A program made the position numbers and the translations under genes. Shown in pieces: positions 2,443-18,086 of a DNA stretch of 38,820 nt. Within the stretch, counting starts at the first letter, position 1, and the number at the start of each line of letters is the position of its first letter. The notes beneath the pieces are model-generated. The model worked only from the letters and a program-made list of their open reading frames with translations, made no database searches and had not been told where the DNA came from. This DNA comes from Bacteroidota bacterium (GTDB lineage Bacteria > Bacteroidota > Ignavibacteria > UBA10030 > UBA6906): assembly GCA_017860635.1 (NCBI GenBank), contig JAGDMK010000039.1, positions 1 to 38,820 of the forward strand, given 5' to 3'.

Positions 2443-5400
2443 ATGCTGGGAATTCTCCGGAAATTCTTCGGTAGCAAACACGAAAAGGACGTCAAGGGTC
2501 TTCTGCCGGTCGTTGTCCAAATCAACGATCACGCGAAGGCATACGCGGAACTCTCCGACGAACAGCTCCGTGGCAAGACAGAGGAATTCCGCGGCCGCAT
2601 CCGTGAAGCAATCCACGAAACGGAAGAGCAGATTGCAGGACTCCGGAAGCAGCTTCCTGACGCGCTTGAAGGGGCGGAGCGTGAACGCATCCTGGACCAG
2701 ATCGCTGATCTGGAGAAAGAACGGGATGAAGTCACGGCTGAAGTCCTGGACGAGCTGCTCCCGGAGGCATTTGCAGCAGTGAAGGATGCCTGCCAGCGCA
2801 TGAAGGACCGGGGATGGACATTTGATCTGCTCGGTCATCCTTCGGTGTGGGACATGGTACCATTCGACGTTCAGCTTGTCGGCGGCATGGTGCTGCACCA
2901 GGGGAGGATCGCCGAAATGGCGACCGGCGAAGGGAAGACCCTCGTGGCGACAATGCCGATCTACCTCAACGCGCTCCCGGCACGCGGCGTCCACCTGGTC
3001 ACGGTCAACGATTACCTGGCCAAGCGCGACAGCGTCTGGATGGGACAGGTCTATTCCTTCCTGGGTCTTACCATCGGGTGTATCCAGAACACCATGGATT
3101 CCGCCCAGCGGCGCCGGGAGTATGCCTGTGATATTACGTACGGAACCAACAACGAGTTCGGGTTCGACTACCTTCGCGACAACATGGTGGTGGACAAGAT
3201 CGACCTGGTCCAGCGCGAGCACTACTATGCCATTGTGGACGAGGTCGATTCGGTCCTGATTGATGAAGCCAGAACCCCGCTCATCATCAGCGGTCCGACC
3301 AAGAGCGAAGACCACAAGTTCAATGAAATGAAGCCCGCGGTTGAGCGGATCGTCAACGCCCAGAAGACCTTCATTGCCAAGATCGTGGCCGAGGCGGAGC
3401 GGCTGCTGGAGGAAGGGAAGACCGAGGAAGCCGGCGTGCATCTGCTCCGGGCTTCGCGCGGCCTGCCCAAGCACCCGCGCCTGATGAAGGTGTTCAGCGA
3501 CCCTGCGCACAAAAAGCTGGTGCAGCAGACAGAGAGTGAGTACCTGCGTGATCAGTCACGGCGCATGCACGAGATCGACGATGAGTTGTACTATGCAATC
3601 GACGAGAAGAACCACCAGATCAGTCTGACCGAGAAAGGGCGTGCCTATGTCATGCCGATCGTCGGTGACAAGGATTTCTTCGTGCTGCCTGATCTGGGCA
3701 CGGAATTCAGCATCCTCGAGCATGACAGCGAGCTCACAGCGGACCAGAAGCGGCAGAAGAAGGACGAGCTGAACCTTCTGTATTCGGAGCGGAGCGATCG
3801 CATTCATACCGTCACGCAGCTGTTGCGCGCCTACTCGTTGTACGAAAAAGACGACGAGTATGTCGTCAGCGACGATGGCAAGGTCATGATTGTGGATGAG
3901 TTCACCGGCCGACTGCTGCCCGGACGGCGCTATTCCGACGGCCTGCATCAGGCAATCGAGGCCAAGGAAGGCGTGAAGGTCGAGCGGGATATGCAGACGC
4001 TGGCCACCATCACGCTGCAGAACTACTTCCGCCTGTACAAGAAACTTGCGGGCATGACGGGTACCGCCGAGACCGAGGCGGGTGAGTTTTTCGATATCTA
4101 CAAACTGGATGTGGTGGTCGTACCGACCAACCGGCCCATGGTCCGGACGGACATTGACGATTTCATCTACAAGACCAAGCGTGAGAAGTACAATGCGCTG
4201 ACGGAAGAGATCGAACGCATGCGTGCGCTAAGCCGCCCGGTGCTGGTCGGAACCACGAGCGTGGAAGTCTCCGAGACGATCAGCAGAATGTTGAAGCGCA
4301 AGAACATCGCGCACAACGTGTTGAATGCCAAGCAGCACCAGCGCGAAGCGGAAATCGTGGCCCACGCGGGCCTCCCGGGCGCCATCACCATTGCCACGAA
4401 CATGGCCGGGCGCGGTACAGACATCAAGCTTGGACCGGGCGTGCGGGAAGCCGGCGGGCTGCACATCATCGGCACCGAACGGCACGAGGCGCGACGTATC
4501 GACCGTCAGCTGCGCGGCCGTTCCGGACGGCAGGGCGATCCGGGGTCCTCGCAATTCTTCCTTTCCCTTGAAGATGATCTGATGCGGCTCTTCGGAAGCG
4601 ACCGGATTGCCGGGATCATGGAGCGGATGGGTCTGAAGGACGGGGAGGTTATCCAGCACCGGATGATCACCCGCTCCGTCGAGCGCGCGCAGAAAAAAGT
4701 CGAAGAGAACAACTTCGGCATCCGTAAACGCCTGCTGGAATATGACAACGTGATGAACCAGCAGCGGGAGGTTATTTATACCCGCCGCCGCAAGGCCCTC
4801 GTGTCCGACCGGATCAGAGAAGATATCCTCGACCTCGTCGACGATTTTGCGACCAAGCTGACGGACAAGTACTACGAGAATGGCGACATCCAGGCGCTCC
4901 AGGACGAACTCCGGGTGGGGCTCCTCGTGGATTTCCCCATCACGCCGGAGCGTTGGCAGGAGCTTGGAAAGGCCGGCGTCACCCAGGAAATCATCAAGGC
5001 AGCCGCGGAGTTCTACCGCAGGAAAGAGGAACGGCTCGGCCCCGAGATGATGGGGCAAATCGAAAAAATGGTGGTCCTGCAGGTCATCGATGAGAAATGG
5101 AAAGACCACCTGCGGGAGATGGACGATCTCAAGGAGGGGATCCACCTCCGGGCCTACGGCCAGAAAGACCCGCTGGTTGAGTACAAGACCGAAGCCTTCG
5201 GGATGTTCATGGTGCTGCTGGATCTGATCAACGCCGAGGCCGTCACGTCGGTGTTCCGGCTCTATCCGGCGCAGGCTCAGCAGCTGCCGCTACGCGGACC
5301 CCAGCGGCCCCAACAGATGCGCATCTCTCATGATGCCACCGAAGGCATGGGATACCGTCCGAACCGTGAACCAGCACCCGGAGCCGCAGCAGGTATGCCT

Positions 5401-9637: not shown

Positions 9638-11666
9638 CTCTGTGCGCCCGTTCGTCCGGTGGCACGCGTTGCTGAAGCGTGTGTCCGTGCTGACGGTGTT
9701 GGTCGTGATGTCCGGCATCTGCGGATGGGGAAATGGGCAGACTGGCTTCAGCAAGCAGACCCTGTCCGATCGCAAATCTTCCAGCCCGTTCTCCACACCA
9801 GCAGACAGTGGCATTGATGTGTTGCACTACGATCTTGCCATCACGCTTGGCATGACAGACGGATTTCTCGGGGGGAGGATGACGATGCAGGTACGGATCC
9901 CGCCGGCTGCGGGAGGGGGAACAGACCGGATACCTGTTCATTCCGCACAGCTCGACATCGATTCGGCGTTTGTGAACGGCACACGGTGCACGGTTGAGAG
10001 AGATTCTGTACATGAGAAGGTGGCCATCGTCCATCCGGCGGGGCGCCTCTTCATGCCCGGCGAGAGTCTGACAGTGCGGATTGACTATCGGCGCTTGCCC
10101 GGCGTCAGCCGTCCCGGATCCCGGTGGGGGTACTACTTCTTTCTTGACACGCTGGGGATTCCGTCCAACCTCGGCTATACCATGTCAGAGCCTTCAGACG
10201 CACGGTACTGGATGCCGTGCCACGACGAGCCCTGGGACAAGGCCACGGCGGAGCTGAGGATTACGGTCCCCTCAGGATACGTCGCTGCCTCAAACGGGAA
10301 GCTTGTGTCCGTCACGCCTGGCCCTGCTGGGAACGTGACGTGGCACTGGCACGAATCCCATCCAATTGCGCCGTATCTGATGAGTGTCACGGCGTCCCGT
10401 TTCACCGTAGCGACGCTCCCCTTTGTCCGTGCCCCCGGTGACACGATCCCGCTCCAGTACTACGTCTGGCCACCTGATTCACTGGAAACCGCACAGTACC
10501 TCCCGACTGTCCGGTCCATGGTCGAAGCATTGTCCTCACTATTGGGTCCGTACCCGTTCGACAAATACGGCATGACGGCAGTTGTCCCGTTCGGGTACGG
10601 CGGCATGGAGCACCAGACAATAACAACATTGAACCGATATCTGAAAACGGATGAGCAGGTGGTGGTGCATGAGCTGGCCCATCAGTGGTGGGGAGACCTC
10701 GTGACGTGTGCGACCTGGCCGGATATCTGGCTCAATGAAAGCTTCGCCTCCTACAGCGAGGCGCTGTGGGCAGAGCACAAAGGAGGGAGGCCCGCACTCA
10801 AATCGTACATGGAGGAGGCACATCTGCACTTTATGTACAGCTCGTGGGAGGGGGCGGTGTACGATCCGGTGACTCAGGGATTCAATCTCTTCGACGATGT
10901 CGTCTACGGCAAAGGTTCGTGGGTGCTCCACACACTCCGGGGTGTCGTGGGAGACTCGCTGTTTTTCCGCATACTCCGGGAATACCGGGCGAAGCATAGC
11001 GGGGGGAATGCCACAACGGCGGACTTCCAGGCAGCCGTCGATTCGGTCACGGGTGTTGCCATGGACTGGTTCTTCCAGCAGTGGATCTATGGGAAGGGCT
11101 GGCCGATCTATGGTGTCAGGCAGCTGTGGACAGGAGACAGCCTCATCGTGACGCTCACGCAGGAGCAATCACTGGACTGGTCCCTCTTTACGATGCCGCT
11201 GACGCTGAAGATACACGGTCCGGGTCGTGATACCACGGTGGCTGTGCAGAACAGCAGCCAGAGCCAGTCCTACACGTTCGCTCCCTCGTTTGTTCCCGAC
11301 AGCGTCACGCTCGATCCCGACGGATGGGTCTTGAAGCAGATCGACCGGACTGTTACCGCCGTCCTCAAAACCGCCTCTCCGGGATCGTTTGTTCTGGAAC
11401 AGAACTATCCCAACCCGTTCAATGCATCCACAACGATTCGCTATACGGTTCCCGCAGGCACGGAAAGTTCTCACACCGGAGTGGATGTGACGCTCGTGGT
11501 GTTTGATCTTCTCGGCAGGGAGGTATACCGTGCCGTTGCCGGCAGGCAGCCGCCGGGTGTGTCGTCTTTTGAGTTCGAAGCGAGAGCACTGTCCAGCGGT
11601 GTCTATTACTACCGGCTGGACATCGGGACGTGGCGCGGGACCAGGGCCATGGTCCTACTGAGATGA
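9618..11666 (+). CDS. secreted M1-family metallopeptidase with type IX secretion C-terminal tail
   Basis: Zinc aminopeptidase of the M1 (gluzincin) family. The 682-residue product has the zinc site HELAHQWW at residues 351-358 and the third ligand Glu374 in WLNESFASYSEALW, the exact H-E-x-x-H-x18-E spacing. The exopeptidase motif is GGMEH instead of the usual GAMEN. A hydrophobic signal (LLKRVSVLTVLVVMSG) follows a short N-terminal stretch; a GTG at 9642, just after the EamA stop, is an alternative start. After about residue 587 comes LEQNYPNPFNASTTIRY and ends with YYRLDIGTWRGTRAMVLLR, a Por_Secre_tail/type A sorting domain. It is therefore probably exported across the outer membrane by type IX secretion and either released or surface bound. 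Confidence 0.93.
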   Translation: MPDFLVDSVRPFVRWHALLKRVSVLTVLVVMSGICGWGNGQTGFSKQTLSDRKSSSPFSTPADSGIDVLHYDLAITLGMTDGFLGGRMTMQVRIPPAAGGGTDRIPVHSAQLDIDSAFVNGTRCTVERDSVHEKVAIVHPAGRLFMPGESLTVRIDYRRLPGVSRPGSRWGYYFFLDTLGIPSNLGYTMSEPSDARYWMPCHDEPWDKATAELRITVPSGYVAASNGKLVSVTPGPAGNVTWHWHESHPIAPYLMSVTASRFTVATLPFVRAPGDTIPLQYYVWPPDSLETAQYLPTVRSMVEALSSLLGPYPFDKYGMTAVVPFGYGGMEHQTITTLNRYLKTDEQVVVHELAHQWWGDLVTCATWPDIWLNESFASYSEALWAEHKGGRPALKSYMEEAHLHFMYSSWEGAVYDPVTQGFNLFDDVVYGKGSWVLHTLRGVVGDSLFFRILREYRAKHSGGNATTADFQAAVDSVTGVAMDWFFQQWIYGKGWPIYGVRQLWTGDSLIVTLTQEQSLDWSLFTMPLTLKIHGPGRDTTVAVQNSSQSQSYTFAPSFVPDSVTLDPDGWVLKQIDRTVTAVLKTASPGSFVLEQNYPNPFNASTTIRYTVPAGTESSHTGVDVTLVVFDLLGREVYRAVAGRQPPGVSSFEFEARALSSGVYYYRLDIGTWRGTRAMVLLR

Positions 11667-11676
11667 CGTTGGGAGC

Positions 11677-11929
11677 ACAGCACGCGTGTCCGCGCAGCAC
11701 ACGTGTCCGTGCAGCAGACGTGTCCGCGCAGCACGCGTGTCCGTGCAGCAGACGTGTCCGCGCAGCACACGTGTCCGTGCAGCAGACGTGTCCGCGCAGC
11801 ACACGTGTCCGCGCAGCAGACGTGCCCGCGCAGCACACGTGTCTGGACAGCACGCGTGTCCGCACAGCACGCGTGTCCGTGCAGCAGACGTGCCCGCGCA
11901 GGACACCTGCCCGGGCAGCGCGCCAGGGG
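11677..11929. repeat. tandem array of about 15 copies of a 17-bp unit
   Basis: From 11677 each 17 bases repeat the unit GCAGCA[C/G][A/G]CGTGTCCG[C/T]. The second to ninth copies largely alternate between a CACACGTGT-type and a CAGACGTGT-type core, giving a 34-bp higher-order period. The last two copies (from 11898) are decayed. The array starts 10 bases after the M1 peptidase stop and ends 50 bases before uvrC. There are no stop codons in several frames on both strands, so long spurious reading frames cross it; 17 is not a multiple of three and no start or ribosome site supports them. Units follow each other without spacers, so this is not a CRISPR array. Confidence 0.93.
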
Positions 11930-11979
11930 AGTAACACCGGTTCGTTGATTGTCCATGATATTGTAACGACTGCTGGCTT

Positions 11980-13857
11980 ATGACTACACCCACACTGACG
12001 ATCCGCATCGCGGCCGAAGACATCTCTCTTCAGGAGAAACTCGAGTCGTTGCCCGCAGGCCCGGGTGTCTATCAGCACAAAGATGCGCAGGGGAAGGTGC
12101 TGTATGTGGGGAAGGCCAAGAGTCTTCGCAGCCGCGTGAGAAGCTACTTCCAGAAATCCCGTTCTCTTGATCCACGGATCGAGCAGATGCTCTCCAAAGC
12201 CACAGACCTGGAGATCATCGTCACAGATTCGGAAGTCGAGGCGCTGATCCTCGAAGCGAATCTGATCAAAAAGCTCAAGCCCCGGTACAACGTCAATCTG
12301 AAGGACGACAAGAGCTATCCGTACATTGTTGTCACGAACGAACCGTTCCCTCGAGTCTTCGTCACAAGGCAGATCCGGCGCGACGGCTCCCGGTACTTCG
12401 GTCCCTACACCGACGTCAAGAATGTCCGTGCTGCACTGAAAGCTGTCCGTGATCTTTTCATGATCCGGAGCTGCAACTTCGTGCTGGATGCGGACACCAT
12501 TGCCCGGCGGAAAGTGAAGCTCTGCCTGGACTACCATATCAAGAAGTGCGAAGGTCCGTGCGAAGGATTGGTGACAGAAGAGCGGTACAACGCGATGATC
12601 GAACAGGTGGTCACCCTGCTGAAGGGGAAGACCGAGGCGCTGATTGCCGCGCTGCGCAGGGACATGGAAGCATACGCGGACCAGCGGAAGTTTGAAGAAG
12701 CCGCCCTCGTGCGTGATCGCATCAAGGGCCTGCAGGCGTATGCAGAGAGACAGAAGGCCGTAGATCTGGATGCATCAGACCGGGATATCATCGCGTTTGC
12801 GGCGGAAGGGGACGATGCGTGCGGGGCGATATTCAAGGTCCGTGACGGGAAACTCATCGGGAGACACCACTACTACATGAGCGGTGTGGAGGACAAACCA
12901 TCTGCAGAAATCCTCGAGACGCTGGTCCAGCAGCAGTACCTGGAATCCGATGATGTGCCCCAGGAGATACTCCTGCCTTCCGAAGCCGAGGACACAGAGG
13001 CATTACAGGAGTGGTTGTCGCGCCGCCGCGGCGCCTCAGTGTCGCTCCGCGTTCCCGTCGAAGGGGAAGAAGCGAAGCTGGTCGCGCTGACACGGAACAA
13101 CGCGCGTTTTCTCCTGGACGAGTTAAAGATCCAGCGGATGAAGAGGGCAGAGAGCCTGCCTCACCGCGTCACCGCACTCCAGCAGGACCTCCGCCTGCCG
13201 GCACCGCCGCGCCGGATCGAGTGTATAGACATCTCCAATACACAGGGGACCGATGCGGTAGCATCGCTGGTGGTGTTTGTGGACGGGAAGCCCCGGAAGA
13301 GCGAGTATCGCAAGTTCAGGATCCGTGCAGTGGCCGGGCCCGATGATTTCGCGAGCATGCGCGAGGTGGTCGAGAGGCGATTTACGCGCATTCTCCGTGA
13401 ACAGACGACCCCGCCGGATCTGCTCATGGTGGACGGCGGGAAAGGACAGCTCTCAAGTGCGGTTGAGGTCCTGACGCGGCTGGGCCTGTCATCCCAGCCG
13501 GTAATCGGTCTCGCAAAACGCCTTGAAGAAGTGTTTCTGCCGGGGGTGAGTGAGCCGGTACTTATCGCCAAGGCCTCGGGTGGACTCCGTCTGCTTCAGC
13601 AGATCCGGGATGAGGCGCACCGCTTTGCCATCACATACCACCGATCCCTTCGCGAGAAGCGGACGCTGCAGACAGAGCTGGACCTGATTGCGGGGATCGG
13701 GAAAAAGCGGGCAAAGGAGCTCCTGGAGGCCTTCGGCTCGGTCCAGGGAGTGAAGTTCGCTTCACCTGAACAGCTCGCGGAAGTCGTTGGCCAGAAGACC
13801 TCTGAGAGGATCCGGGAGTACTTTACCATGGATCAGGATGATGAAACACGTGGCTAA
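11980..13857 (+). CDS. uvrC: excinuclease ABC subunit C
   Basis: Dual-incision nuclease of nucleotide excision repair. The 625-residue protein has, in order, the GIY-YIG domain (GPGVYQHKDAQGKVLYVGKA, residues about 27-46), a UVR helical hairpin that binds UvrB (YADQRKFEEAALVRDRIKGL, about 227-246), the RNase H-like nuclease domain that makes the 5' cut (IECIDISNTQGTDAVAS and LLMVDGGKGQLSSA) and the tandem helix-hairpin-helix (IAGIGKKRAKELLEAFGSV). Length is usual for the family. It starts 50 bp after the 17-bp repeat array, so its promoter must lie within or just after the array; no -35/-10 pair that I trust is seen there. Confidence 0.97.
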   Translation: MTTPTLTIRIAAEDISLQEKLESLPAGPGVYQHKDAQGKVLYVGKAKSLRSRVRSYFQKSRSLDPRIEQMLSKATDLEIIVTDSEVEALILEANLIKKLKPRYNVNLKDDKSYPYIVVTNEPFPRVFVTRQIRRDGSRYFGPYTDVKNVRAALKAVRDLFMIRSCNFVLDADTIARRKVKLCLDYHIKKCEGPCEGLVTEERYNAMIEQVVTLLKGKTEALIAALRRDMEAYADQRKFEEAALVRDRIKGLQAYAERQKAVDLDASDRDIIAFAAEGDDACGAIFKVRDGKLIGRHHYYMSGVEDKPSAEILETLVQQQYLESDDVPQEILLPSEAEDTEALQEWLSRRRGASVSLRVPVEGEEAKLVALTRNNARFLLDELKIQRMKRAESLPHRVTALQQDLRLPAPPRRIECIDISNTQGTDAVASLVVFVDGKPRKSEYRKFRIRAVAGPDDFASMREVVERRFTRILREQTTPPDLLMVDGGKGQLSSAVEVLTRLGLSSQPVIGLAKRLEEVFLPGVSEPVLIAKASGGLRLLQQIRDEAHRFAITYHRSLREKRTLQTELDLIAGIGKKRAKELLEAFGSVQGVKFASPEQLAEVVGQKTSERIREYFTMDQDDETRG

Positions 13858-14715: not shown

Positions 14716-14738
14716 CATCTGAATTCATGGAGAATCCT

Positions 14739-14984
14739 ATGAAGCGTGTACGAATGGCATTGCTCATTGTCCTCAGCGTCGTTGCCGCATTTGTGCTTGT
14801 TCGGGCGGCGGACGCCCAGCAGGATAAACGTCCCAAGCAGCAGCACGTCGTCTGGGAGTACCGCGATGCGGCGAACCTCAACATTGCGCAGCTGAACACC
14901 ATCGGTGCCGAGGGATGGGAGCTTGCGGTGGTGACGCCGTATGGCAAGGACTACTACTACATCTTCAAGCGTCCGAAACTATAG
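14739..14984 (+). CDS. small exported DUF4177-like protein
   Basis: Short exported protein of unknown function, 81 residues from the ATG at 14739. This start has GGAG 6 bases upstream; the ATG at 14727 has none. The N-terminus is a clean signal peptide (MKRVRMALLIVLSVVAAF, ending RAADAQ). The mature part, about 55 residues, has the DUF4177 pattern: WEYRDAANLNIAQLNTIGAE with GWELAVVTPYGKDYYYIFKR, i.e. an aromatic strand, 'N.lga.GWEl' and a final 'yyifKR' strand. DUF4177 proteins are usually cytoplasmic or membrane tethered; the role is unknown. It ends 48 bases before the tRNA-Val promoter. Confidence 0.75.
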   Translation: MKRVRMALLIVLSVVAAFVLVRAADAQQDKRPKQQHVVWEYRDAANLNIAQLNTIGAEGWELAVVTPYGKDYYYIFKRPKL

Positions 14985-15031: not shown

Positions 15032-15060
15032 TTGCATGAACGGGGCCAAATGCGTATATT
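15032..15060 (+). promoter_or_regulatory. predicted tRNA-Val / pyr operon promoter (TTGCAT-N17-TATATT)
   Basis: TTGCAT at 15032-15037 and TATATT at 15055-15060 are 17 bases apart. Transcription would start near 15067, a few bases before the mature tRNA 5' end at 15074. I see no other comparable promoter between the tRNA and the pyrR leader hairpin, so this promoter may also serve pyrRBC. Confidence 0.7.
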
Positions 15061-15073
15061 GGGACCAATCGAT

Positions 15074-15147
15074 GGGCGATTAGCTCAGTTGGTCAGAGCG
15101 CACGGTTCACATCCGTGAGGTCATAGGTTCAAGTCCTATATCGCCCA
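15074..15147 (+). tRNA. tRNA-Val (anticodon CAC)
   Basis: A complete 74-nt cloverleaf: acceptor stem GGGCGAT/ATCGCCC, D arm GCTC/GAGC, anticodon stem CACGG/CCGTG around loop TTCACAT (anticodon CAC, reading GUG), variable region AGGTC, T arm ATAGG/CCTAT with loop TTCAAGT, discriminator A. The next bases are CCC rather than CCA, so the 3' CCA must be added by nucleotidyltransferase. Confidence 0.95.
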
Positions 15148-15148
15148 C

Positions 15149-15184
15149 CCCTTTAAATCCTGCCCGAGGAGAGGCAGGGAAGGG
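15149..15184 (+). promoter_or_regulatory. candidate PyrR-binding stem-loop in the pyr leader
   Basis: A two-part hairpin starts one base after the tRNA: outer stem CCCTT (15149-15153) with AAGGG (15180-15184), an internal loop TTAAAT on the 5' side, inner stem CCTGCC (15159-15164) with GGCAGG (15173-15178), and a purine-rich end loop CGAGGAGA. PyrR binding RNAs in Bacillus have this layout (lower stem, internal bulge, upper stem) and a core with GAGAGG; here GAGAGGC is present at 15171-15175 and adjacent. A following stem GGGAA-GGGC-TTCCC could compete with the outer stem. The match is by eye and PyrR is encoded directly downstream, but binding is inferred. Confidence 0.55.
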
Positions 15185-15219
15185 CTTCCCCAATGTGCTT
15201 CCTGACCGACGACTTCGAC

Positions 15220-15260
15220 AACCTCCGTGTGCAACGGCCATGCGGAGGTTTTTCCTTTTT
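15220..15260 (+). terminator. intrinsic terminator / pyr attenuator between tRNA-Val and pyrR
   Basis: An 8-bp stem AACCTCCG (15220-15227) with CGGAGGTT (15243-15250) and a 15-base loop is followed by TTTCCTTTTT. This is a good rho-independent terminator. Because it sits after the candidate PyrR hairpin and 43 bases before the pyrR ATG, it could be the regulated terminator of an attenuation system; alternatively it simply ends the tRNA transcript. Only 4-5 base pairs of antiterminator complementarity (GGAG/GAGG of the upstream loop with CTCC/CCTC) were found. Confidence 0.75.
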
Positions 15261-15302
15261 CTCCCCCCGGTGTCTTCTCTCTCCTCATATAGGAACACAC
15301 GC

Positions 15303-15848
15303 ATGAGACGATTAAAAGCGCAGATCATTGATCAGGACGGTTTCGACCGTACCACGATCCGGCTTGCCCATGAGATCCTGGAAAAAAACAGAGGTGCAGG
15401 CAACATCGTCATTGTGGGCATACGCACGCGCGGGGAGTTCATCGCGCGCCGCATCGCCCGGATCATCGAGGAGGTGGAACACACGACGCTGCAGATCGGG
15501 TCGCTGGACATCACGCTCTACCGTGACGATCTGCTGGGCAAGCTCGAACAGCCGCAGCTCAAGGGGACAGACATCCTGTTCGACATCTCCGGGAAGGACG
15601 TCATCCTGATCGATGATGTGTTGTTCACCGGACGGACCATCCGTGCCGCGCTGGATGAACTGATCGACCTTGGTCGTCCGCGGACGATCCAGCTGGCGGT
15701 GTTAATTGACCGTGGGCACCGGCAACTTCCGATCCGTGCCGATTATGTGGGAAAGAACATTCCCACCGCCGCACAGGAATCCATCCGCGTTCATGTCAAG
15801 GAAGTTGACGGGGAAGACGCAGTGCTCTTGATGCATCCAGAAGAATAA
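15303..15848 (+). CDS. pyrR: bifunctional pyr operon regulator / uracil phosphoribosyltransferase PyrR
   Basis: UMP/UTP-responsive RNA-binding regulator of pyrimidine genes with a side activity as uracil phosphoribosyltransferase. The 181-residue product (start ATG 15303, with AGGA at 15291-15294) has the PRPP-binding loop VILIDDVLFTGRTIRAAL, the IVGIRTRGEFIARRIA loop and the basic IDRGHRQLPIRADYVGK stretch that forms the RNA-binding face in PyrR but not in plain UPRTs. It heads pyrR-pyrB-pyrC, with gaps of 27 and 29 bp. A leader with a PyrR-type hairpin and a terminator lies directly upstream, so self-regulation is likely. A longer in-frame start at 15195 would run across the terminator and is rejected. 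Confidence 0.95.
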   Translation: MRRLKAQIIDQDGFDRTTIRLAHEILEKNRGAGNIVIVGIRTRGEFIARRIARIIEEVEHTTLQIGSLDITLYRDDLLGKLEQPQLKGTDILFDISGKDVILIDDVLFTGRTIRAALDELIDLGRPRTIQLAVLIDRGHRQLPIRADYVGKNIPTAAQESIRVHVKEVDGEDAVLLMHPEE

Positions 15849-15875: not shown

Positions 15876-16796
15876 ATGCCGTTGCAGAGCAGACACCTCC
15901 TTGGACTTGACGGGATGCGGCGTGAGGATATTCAGCTCATCCTTGATACCGCAGTGAGTTTCCGTGAGGTCCTGGATCGACCGATCAAAAAAGTTCCTCC
16001 CCTGACGGGGAAGACCGTAGCCAACATGTTTTTCGAGAATTCCACGCGGACCCGGTTGTCGTTCGAACTCGCCGAGCGCAGGCTGTCGGCTGACGTGCTG
16101 GGGTTTGCCGCCACGGGCAGCAGCGTGAGCAAGGGAGAGACGCTGAAGGACACCGCCCGGAATATCGAAGCCATGAAAGTGGACATGGTTGTCATGCGGC
16201 ATTCCGCCGCGGGCGCGCCCCACTACCTCTCCCGCGTCATCGAGGCAAATGTGATCAATGCGGGCGACGGTTCTCATGAGCACCCGACGCAGGCCCTTCT
16301 CGACATGTACACGATCCGGGAGAAACTCGGGCGCCTGCAGGACCTCCATGTGTGCATCCTGGGAGATATCTCACACAGCCGTGTCGCCCGTTCAAACATC
16401 TTCGGCCTGAAAACCATGGGAGCGCGGGTCACGGTGTGCGGACCGGCCACCATGATACCGCGCGAGATAACACGGCTGGGCGTGGAAGTCTGTCATCACA
16501 TCGACGACGTGCTCCCATCGGTGGATGTCCTGAATGTGCTGCGAATCCAGCTCGAACGCGATGCGGGCCGGCTGTTCCCGTCGCTCCGCGAGTACCACAA
16601 TTTCTATGGCATCACGCGCAAGCGGCTGGAAAAAGCCGGACGGACGATCACCATCATGCATCCGGGACCCATCAACAGGGACGTGGAAATCTCGGCGGAT
16701 GTGGCGGACAGCGAGCACTCGGTGATTCTGCAGCAGGTGCTCAACGGCGTCGCCATCCGCATGGCTGTGCTCTATCTGCTTTCTTCACGAACGTAA
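15876..16796 (+). CDS. pyrB: aspartate carbamoyltransferase catalytic subunit
   Basis: Transfers carbamoyl from carbamoyl phosphate to aspartate, the committed step of UMP synthesis. The 306-residue length is standard. The carbamoyl-phosphate loop is FFENSTRTRLSFELAERRL (Ser56-Thr-Arg-Thr-Arg60), and the mobile loop SSVSKGETLKDTARN, HPTQALLDMYTIRE and the aspartate-site MHPGPINRDVEI are all present. No regulatory pyrI gene is nearby, consistent with unregulated trimers and control through PyrR. It is second in pyrRBC. Confidence 0.97.
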   Translation: MPLQSRHLLGLDGMRREDIQLILDTAVSFREVLDRPIKKVPPLTGKTVANMFFENSTRTRLSFELAERRLSADVLGFAATGSSVSKGETLKDTARNIEAMKVDMVVMRHSAAGAPHYLSRVIEANVINAGDGSHEHPTQALLDMYTIREKLGRLQDLHVCILGDISHSRVARSNIFGLKTMGARVTVCGPATMIPREITRLGVEVCHHIDDVLPSVDVLNVLRIQLERDAGRLFPSLREYHNFYGITRKRLEKAGRTITIMHPGPINRDVEISADVADSEHSVILQQVLNGVAIRMAVLYLLSSRT

Positions 16797-16825: not shown

Positions 16826-17758
16826 ATGCAACTCCTTTTGAAGAACGGCCGCCTCGTTGACCCCCTGACCGGGCGTGATGAAGCGCTTGATCTGCTGATC
16901 ACGGACGGCCGCATTGACCGCATTGGACACAGCCTCACGTCTGCCAGCGCCCAGGTCATCGAGCTCCGGGGGAAAGTGATTGCGCCCGGGTTCATCGACA
17001 TGCACGTCCATCTCCGGGAACCGGGCTTCGAATACAAAGAAACCATCGCGAGCGGCTGTGCCGCGGCTGCAGCCGGAGGCTTCACGGCCGTCTGCTGTAT
17101 GCCCAATACAAACCCTCCTATCGATGATGAATCGGTGATACGGTTCATCCAGGCCAGGGCGAAGGTTGCCCTGGGCGGGCTCGTGGATGTCTATCCCGTT
17201 GCCGCGGTCACCATGGCACGCAAGGGAGAACACCTTGCACCCCTTGCAGAGCTCGCCACTGCGGGCGCCGTGGCATTCTCTGATGATGGTGATCCGGTCG
17301 CCGACACCGAACTCATGCGGCGGGCGCTGGAATACAGCGCGATGTTCGGGAAACCCGTCATCCAGCATGCACAGGATCCCGCACTGAGCAAAGGGGGTGT
17401 GGCCAATGAGGGGTTTGTGGCAACGTCCCTTGGCCTACCGGTGATCCCCCGGCTCGCCGAGGAGATCATGGTGGCGCGCGACATCCGCCTTGCTGCTTAC
17501 ACGGGCGGATTGTATCACGTCGCGCACGTCAGCACGGCCGAAACGCTTGCCACAATCCGCAAGGGAAAGGCAGACGGTGTGCACGTTACATGCGAAGTGA
17601 CGCCGCATCACTTTGTCCTCACGGACGAATCCCTGCGCTCGTTCGACACGAACTTCAAGATGAATCCCCCGCTCCGGACACAGGACGATGTGGAGGCAAT
17701 GAAGGGATGGAACGATCGATGCCATTGCGACCGATCATGCGCCCCACTCGTTCGATGA
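16826..17758 (+). pseudogene. pyrC: dihydroorotase, 5' part of a frameshifted gene
   Basis: Class I dihydroorotase that closes carbamoyl aspartate to dihydroorotate. The start at ATG 16826 has GAGGTG 6 bases upstream. The zinc site FIDMHVHLREPGFEYKE (His60, His62) and FTAVCCMPNTNPPIDD are intact, as are NPPLRTQDDVEAMK. After this point (17703-17707, AAGGGAT) the frame is lost and the product ends in unrelated residues at 17758. Removing one G from the GGG run restores K-D-G-T-I-D-A-I-A-T-D-H-A-P-H, the normal continuation, and gives 419 residues, the expected length. As read, the product lacks the catalytic Asp (position 303 after repair) and should be inactive. The gene is usually essential without uridine, so an assembly error is a serious alternative. 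Confidence 0.9.
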
Positions 17759-18086
17759 GAAAGAAGTCGAGTTCCAGGTCGCGCCTTTCGGCATCATCGG
17801 CGGACTCGCTTTGACCGAGCTGCTGGGCAAAAACGTGCTGTCACTGTACCAGCTCGTGGAAAAGTTCTCCCTGAATCCGCGGCGCATCCTCCATCTCCCG
17901 GACATCAAGATCGAAGAGGGGGAAATGGCCAATCTCTCCCTCCTCGATCCCGTCACAGAGTGGGTCGTCGATCCGCCGTCATTCCGCTCGCATTCCCGCA
18001 ATACCCCGTTCGGCGGCTATCACCTTACCGGCCGGCCGATCGGAGTCCTGAACAACGGACAGGTGCACTGGTCCACGCCGTCCTGA
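17703..18086 (+). pseudogene. pyrC: dihydroorotase, 3' part of the frameshifted gene
   Basis: This is the C-terminal 128 residues or so of PyrC in the +1-shifted frame. It holds the catalytic Asp and its context (TIDAIATDHAPHSFDEKEVE), the FQVAPFGIIGG motif, NPRRILHLPDIKIEEGEMAN and ends with a family-typical TGRPIGVLNNGQVHW. No start codon with a ribosome site fits an independent gene; a TTG at 17811 is the first formal start and would skip the active site. The sequence shows no other damage, so the lesion is a single base and either recent or an artefact. Confidence 0.88.

Follow-up and report, generated by a model that had tools for sequence, protein, structure and literature searches.

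A PyrR-type leader directly behind a tRNA-Val gene in Ignavibacteria and its probable transcription from the tRNA promoter

In a 38,820-nucleotide stretch of DNA (the window) from a 3.9 Mb MAG that is 88% complete, a gene for tRNA-Val(CAC) directly adjoins a two-part hairpin, which is followed by a terminator and the genes pyrR-pyrB-pyrC. This arrangement raises the question of which promoter feeds the pyr genes, and whether a PyrR-type attenuator can belong to a transcript that is headed by a tRNA. An initial annotation of the sequence had proposed that both share the promoter of the tRNA. The features of the locus are the following:

15032-15060, + strand: predicted promoter TTGCAT-N17-TATATT (lineage pattern search)
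15074-15147, + strand: tRNA-Val(CAC), CCA not encoded (Rfam, 72.4 bits; ARAGORN, 15073-15150)
15146-15257, + strand: full-length RF00515-type leader, i.e., hairpin and terminator (32.3 bits, E 0.0096)
15148-15185, + strand: PyrR-site-like hairpin (RF00515 alignment, folding, covariation)
15220 to about 15250-15255, + strand: intrinsic terminator, the predicted attenuator (terminator scan)
15303-15848, + strand: pyrR (NCBIfam NF003549, 235.4 bits versus a cut-off of 138; PyrR matches in the PDB)
15876-16796, + strand: pyrB, aspartate carbamoyltransferase (NF002032)
16826-18086, + strand: pyrC, dihydroorotase, frameshifted near 17706 (open reading frame and family match)

The Rfam model RF00515, which describes the PyrR attenuator family, could be aligned with the leader from end to end (model positions 1-115; 421 nt searched), and in the 3.9 Mb genome the leader was the sole match at E values up to 10. 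It is located just upstream of pyr genes, in a genome that encodes PyrR; the PyrR of the window is 88-92% identical to that of fen MAGs labelled Ignavibacteriae. The score of 32.3 bits is lower than the curated gathering score of 54. Matches at E<=1 were found in 276 of the 391 genomes of the class and only 11 of the 391 passed the gathering score, showing that the Rfam model is a poor fit to this lineage. Two structural traits of RF00515 are present in the window, namely a bipartite stem with a purine-rich internal bulge and an intrinsic terminator downstream of the hairpin. The lower stem is formed by 15149-15154 and 15179-15184, the bulge is AAAU (15155-15158), and the upper stem is formed by 15159-15164 and 15173-15178. 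From the first base past the tRNA the sequence reads CCCCUUUAAAUCCUGCC-CGAGGAGA-GGCAGGGAAGGG, and the hairpin folded in isolation has a free energy of -17.8 kcal/mol (z -2.5). It had been annotated to begin two bases behind the mature tRNA; it indeed follows the tRNA directly, and its lower stem begins 0-1 base past the discriminator.

A single template parsed 100 of 104 leaders of the order and the class, and all of these had a CNGNGA loop. Covariation was analyzed with 47 distinct hairpins of the order. The upper stem contained 26 two-sided changes (UA to GC, AU to GC) versus 7.8 in shuffled alignments, none of 500 of which reached this value, and 95.7% of the cells were paired, compared with less than 48% for every slid version. 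The initial annotation had made its proposal dependent on conservation of the hairpin, and the hairpin is conserved and covarying across the order. A chance hairpin was ruled out by the covariation of the stem and by the absence of a second RF00515 match from the genome. The full-length, unique match upstream of pyrR, the shared template, and the covariation make the homology to the PyrR attenuator family and the structure secure, while binding of PyrR to the window copy is a prediction.

The GAGAGG core had also been recognized as PyrR-like; this agrees with the homology, but the loop itself deviates from the consensus, which had gone unnoticed. The hexaloop CNGNGA of RF00515 (within ARUCCNGNGAGGYU) is replaced in the window by the 8-nt loop CGAGGAGA (15165-15172). 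The length of 8 nt results from a duplication of GAG, which is absent from two relatives of the same genus. In addition, an alignment with two genomes of the same genus that have an open pyrC revealed an 11-base gap near 17706, causing the frameshift, and a 15-base gap near 17803, which reflect genuine decay or else an error of the assembly. One explanation is that the leader of this genome is decaying, with damage to both the recognition loop and pyrC and a loss of functional PyrR control over the pyr operon; alternatively, small assembly errors could be present here, to which the incompleteness of the MAG would fit. This is regarded as improbable, as the stems, the bulge, the terminator, and the genes pyrR and pyrB are all intact, with good conservation of the two genes. 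Furthermore, the two relatives of the same genus also lack a hexaloop (5-nt loops in the predicted fold), indicating that the drift of the loop predates the GAG insertion.

The terminator that had been annotated between the hairpin and pyrR was found at 15220-15250, in a scan with a background of 0.5 terminators expected per shuffled region, and 15 of the 16 f1 leaders likewise have a terminator at their 3' side. With its end at about 15255, it is the only terminator that was seen downstream of the tRNA. An antiterminator made of the 3' side of the hairpin and the 5' side of the terminator was not evident in the window, where the duplex was no better than in shuffled sequences (p 0.45), and the same was true for f1; duplexes of 7-9 bp are visible in several leaders of families f2 and f3. 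In leaders of f3, f14, f16, and f24 (e.g., L120, L041, L045) a few bases separate the pyrR start codon from the upstream end of the terminator, formed by its 3' arm (GGAGG/GAGG) and the T-run. Because of this proximity, the terminator hairpin in these four families may have a second role in masking the ribosome-binding site.

The discriminator of tRNA-Val(CAC) is A15147. CCA was encoded in only 7 of 74 distinct tRNAs of the window's family, so its absence is usual there. The gene is the sole CAC tRNA-Val found in the assembly, in which the other tRNA-Val found has the anticodon TAC; where checked in f1, the CAC tRNA is present in a single copy, and the other valine tRNAs of the relatives are GAC and TAC. 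A search of the genome for RNase Z yielded one split match only, which was below the cut-off.

The linkage of tRNA and leader is not confined to the window. A tRNA-Val(CAC) on the same strand, at most about 150 nt upstream of the leader, was found at 38 of 77 loci and in four of the five families of the order (f1 10/16, f2 18/31, f3 0/15, f4 5/10, f5 5/5), versus none of 27 loci outside the order. The pyr leader directly behind tRNA-Val, as initially annotated, was confirmed for the window, and the linkage recurs in four families. A distance of only 0-4 nt between tRNA and leader was found in nine genomes from two families, namely G000, G014, G015, G004, G007, and G016 of f1 and G157, G169, and G181 of f5. 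Two further f1 loci are not included in the count, one in which an assembly gap interrupts the tRNA (L006) and one with the tRNA at a distance of 703 nt (L007), and the f4 contig of G236 starts inside the tRNA. In the PyrR tree nearly every family forms a single clade, and the presence of the tRNA requires at least 12 changes, indicating that the linkage is old but was often lost, or that it was gained several times.

Parts of tRNA-Val are also found between the tRNA and the pyr leader. Duplicated 3' parts are present in this position in L262 (G005, 2568-3346) and in L013, L127, L156, L167, L179, and L261, and in G005 a fragment of a Phage_int_SAM_5 integrase lies there as well. Integrative elements that target tRNA genes seem to insert here and to part the tRNA from the pyr operon. 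For genus g6, loss of the tRNA with retention of the promoter was considered and then discarded. Contigs of this genus break off within 5' halves of the tRNA, and 3' halves are repeatedly found, so that the gene may still be intact and only set apart by inserts.

The position of the promoter was analyzed with the pattern TTGNNN-N(16-18)-TA[TCA]N[TA]T, which other promoter types would escape. In the window, TTGCAT (15032-15037) and TATATT (15055-15060) are separated by 17 bases and end 13 bases upstream of the tRNA; the spacer was exactly 17 in every match to the pattern. A canonical promoter scan had no match here, because it demands four of six matches in the -35 element and this promoter has only three. 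Across the order, the pattern was present upstream of the tRNA at 25 of the 38 tRNA-bearing loci (3.7% in shuffled sequences) and missing within 75 nt at the other 13. It occurred at only 2 of the 38 loci within the gap between tRNA and leader, versus directly upstream of the leader at 26 of the 39 loci without a close tRNA. From these matches, the predicted promoter is at the head of the unit, be that the tRNA or the leader, and it is mainly this movement of the promoter with the arrangement that argues for co-transcription. In the window no second promoter of the lineage pattern was found within 15073-15303, so that the pattern search placed a single promoter ahead of the tRNA and detected no other between it and pyrR, as expected for co-transcription. 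The initial annotation had regarded the promoter of the tRNA as the only good one before pyrR, which is in accord with this result and with the conserved promoter position, and the region in which a separate start had been considered (15260-15303) contains no promoter of the lineage type.

The neighborhood could also be due to ancestry only. The hairpin and terminator would then mainly end the tRNA transcript, and the pyrR mRNA would come from a non-canonical promoter of its own, located downstream of the terminator and upstream of pyrR, or from read-through of an upstream small gene at 14727-14984. Such read-through is possible, because the scan showed no terminator from 14984 up to the tRNA. 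In G005, in which the tRNA has been displaced by the remnant of an integrase, a TTGACA-17-TATCTT promoter is found near the leader. Nevertheless, this explanation is regarded as quite unlikely: where leader and tRNA abut, a leader promoter would have no space, and both the distribution of the lineage pattern (gap versus leader) and its absence from 15073-15303 speak against it.

Co-transcription is thus the preferred reading. No promoter of the lineage type was found for the switch behind the tRNA, and the arrangement recurs in four related families; therefore, the pyr genes are probably transcribed from the tRNA promoter. It is likely that tRNA-Val(CAC) and pyrR-pyrB-pyrC form one transcription unit with PyrR-controlled read-through. 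RNA polymerase starting at the tRNA promoter would transcribe the tRNA first and the PyrR-responsive leader next. When UMP/UTP are plentiful, PyrR would bind the hairpin and transcription would stop at 15250-15255; when pyrimidines are scarce, read-through into pyrR would occur. The tRNA would be produced in either state, and, since no other terminator follows it, the attenuator would double as the tRNA terminator. The leader starts at the base after the discriminator, and thus 3' processing of the tRNA would generate the 5' end of the leader.

In Bacillus subtilis, UMP-bound PyrR stabilizes the anti-antiterminator ARUCCAGAGAGGYU, so that the terminator forms, and the pyr operon, with three attenuators, is transcribed from a single constitutive promoter of its own (PMC7430163). 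By analogy, the terminator in the window should close under plentiful pyrimidines. The two systems share the bipartite hairpin, the purine-rich bulge, the GAGAGG-type loop and 3' stem, the terminator, and pyrR downstream. In contrast to B. subtilis, the window has one leader behind a tRNA gene, no detected promoter belonging to that leader, an off-consensus loop, and no evident antiterminator.

Co-transcription of tRNA genes with protein genes occurs in Escherichia coli, e.g., in thrU-tyrU-glyT-thrT-tufB, metY-nusA, and tyrT-tpr. There, as proposed here, an mRNA is additionally transcribed from a stable-RNA promoter and is separated from the tRNA by tRNA processing. To our knowledge, none of these units has a metabolite-responsive attenuator between tRNA and gene, whereas in the window the tRNA is immediately followed by a PyrR-type attenuator. 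In the open-access literature, no report was found of a PyrR leader downstream of a tRNA gene, or of PyrR leaders in Ignavibacteria. The initial annotation was correct on the anatomy, and its interpretation, a PyrR-type attenuator on a transcript predicted to be headed by a tRNA, is well supported. If true, a metabolite-responsive attenuator without a promoter of its own would be fed by a tRNA promoter, and nucleotide synthesis would track stable-RNA transcription yet stay switchable by its end product. The lineages that gained or lost the tRNA offer a natural comparison.

In the sister family f2 an additional element was observed. The motif GTTC[TA]TTNA, written GTTCTTTGA, is present 2-4 nt upstream of the leader at 22 of 31 f2 loci (0.2% in shuffled sequences; e.g., L149, L143, L169), with or without the tRNA, and it precedes the leader at no locus of f1, f4, or f5; the window's family is devoid of it. 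The same TGTTCTTTGAAAA is located about 100-150 nt upstream of the 16S rRNA at 11 of 12 loci of the order, with a core identical to GTTCTTTGA, which identifies the f2 motif as a boxA. This suggests that Nus-factor antitermination is combined with PyrR attenuation in f2, and that Nus-factor control extends to the pyr operon. As a rival reading, the motif could act as an alternative 5' strand that competes for pairing with the AAAGGA arm. A boxA outside of rRNA operons has precedent, e.g., suhB (PMC5725501). The f2 motif resembles the boxA elements of rRNA and suhB leaders and differs in that it adjoins a PyrR leader, for which no description was found in the open-access literature.

It is conceivable, but rather doubtful, that selection has kept the whole arrangement as a design across the order. 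The stable-RNA promoter would then set pyr transcription by growth rate, with the attenuator as tRNA terminator; tRNA 3' maturation beside the PyrR stem would compete with, or depend on, folding or PyrR binding and thereby link tRNA maturation to the pyrimidine level, and the boxA of f2 would add Nus-factor control.

Elsewhere in the window, a run of near-identical repeats at 11600-11980, just upstream of uvrC, leads to low-complexity open reading frames on both strands (RVRAADVSAQH / ARTRVLRGHVCC).
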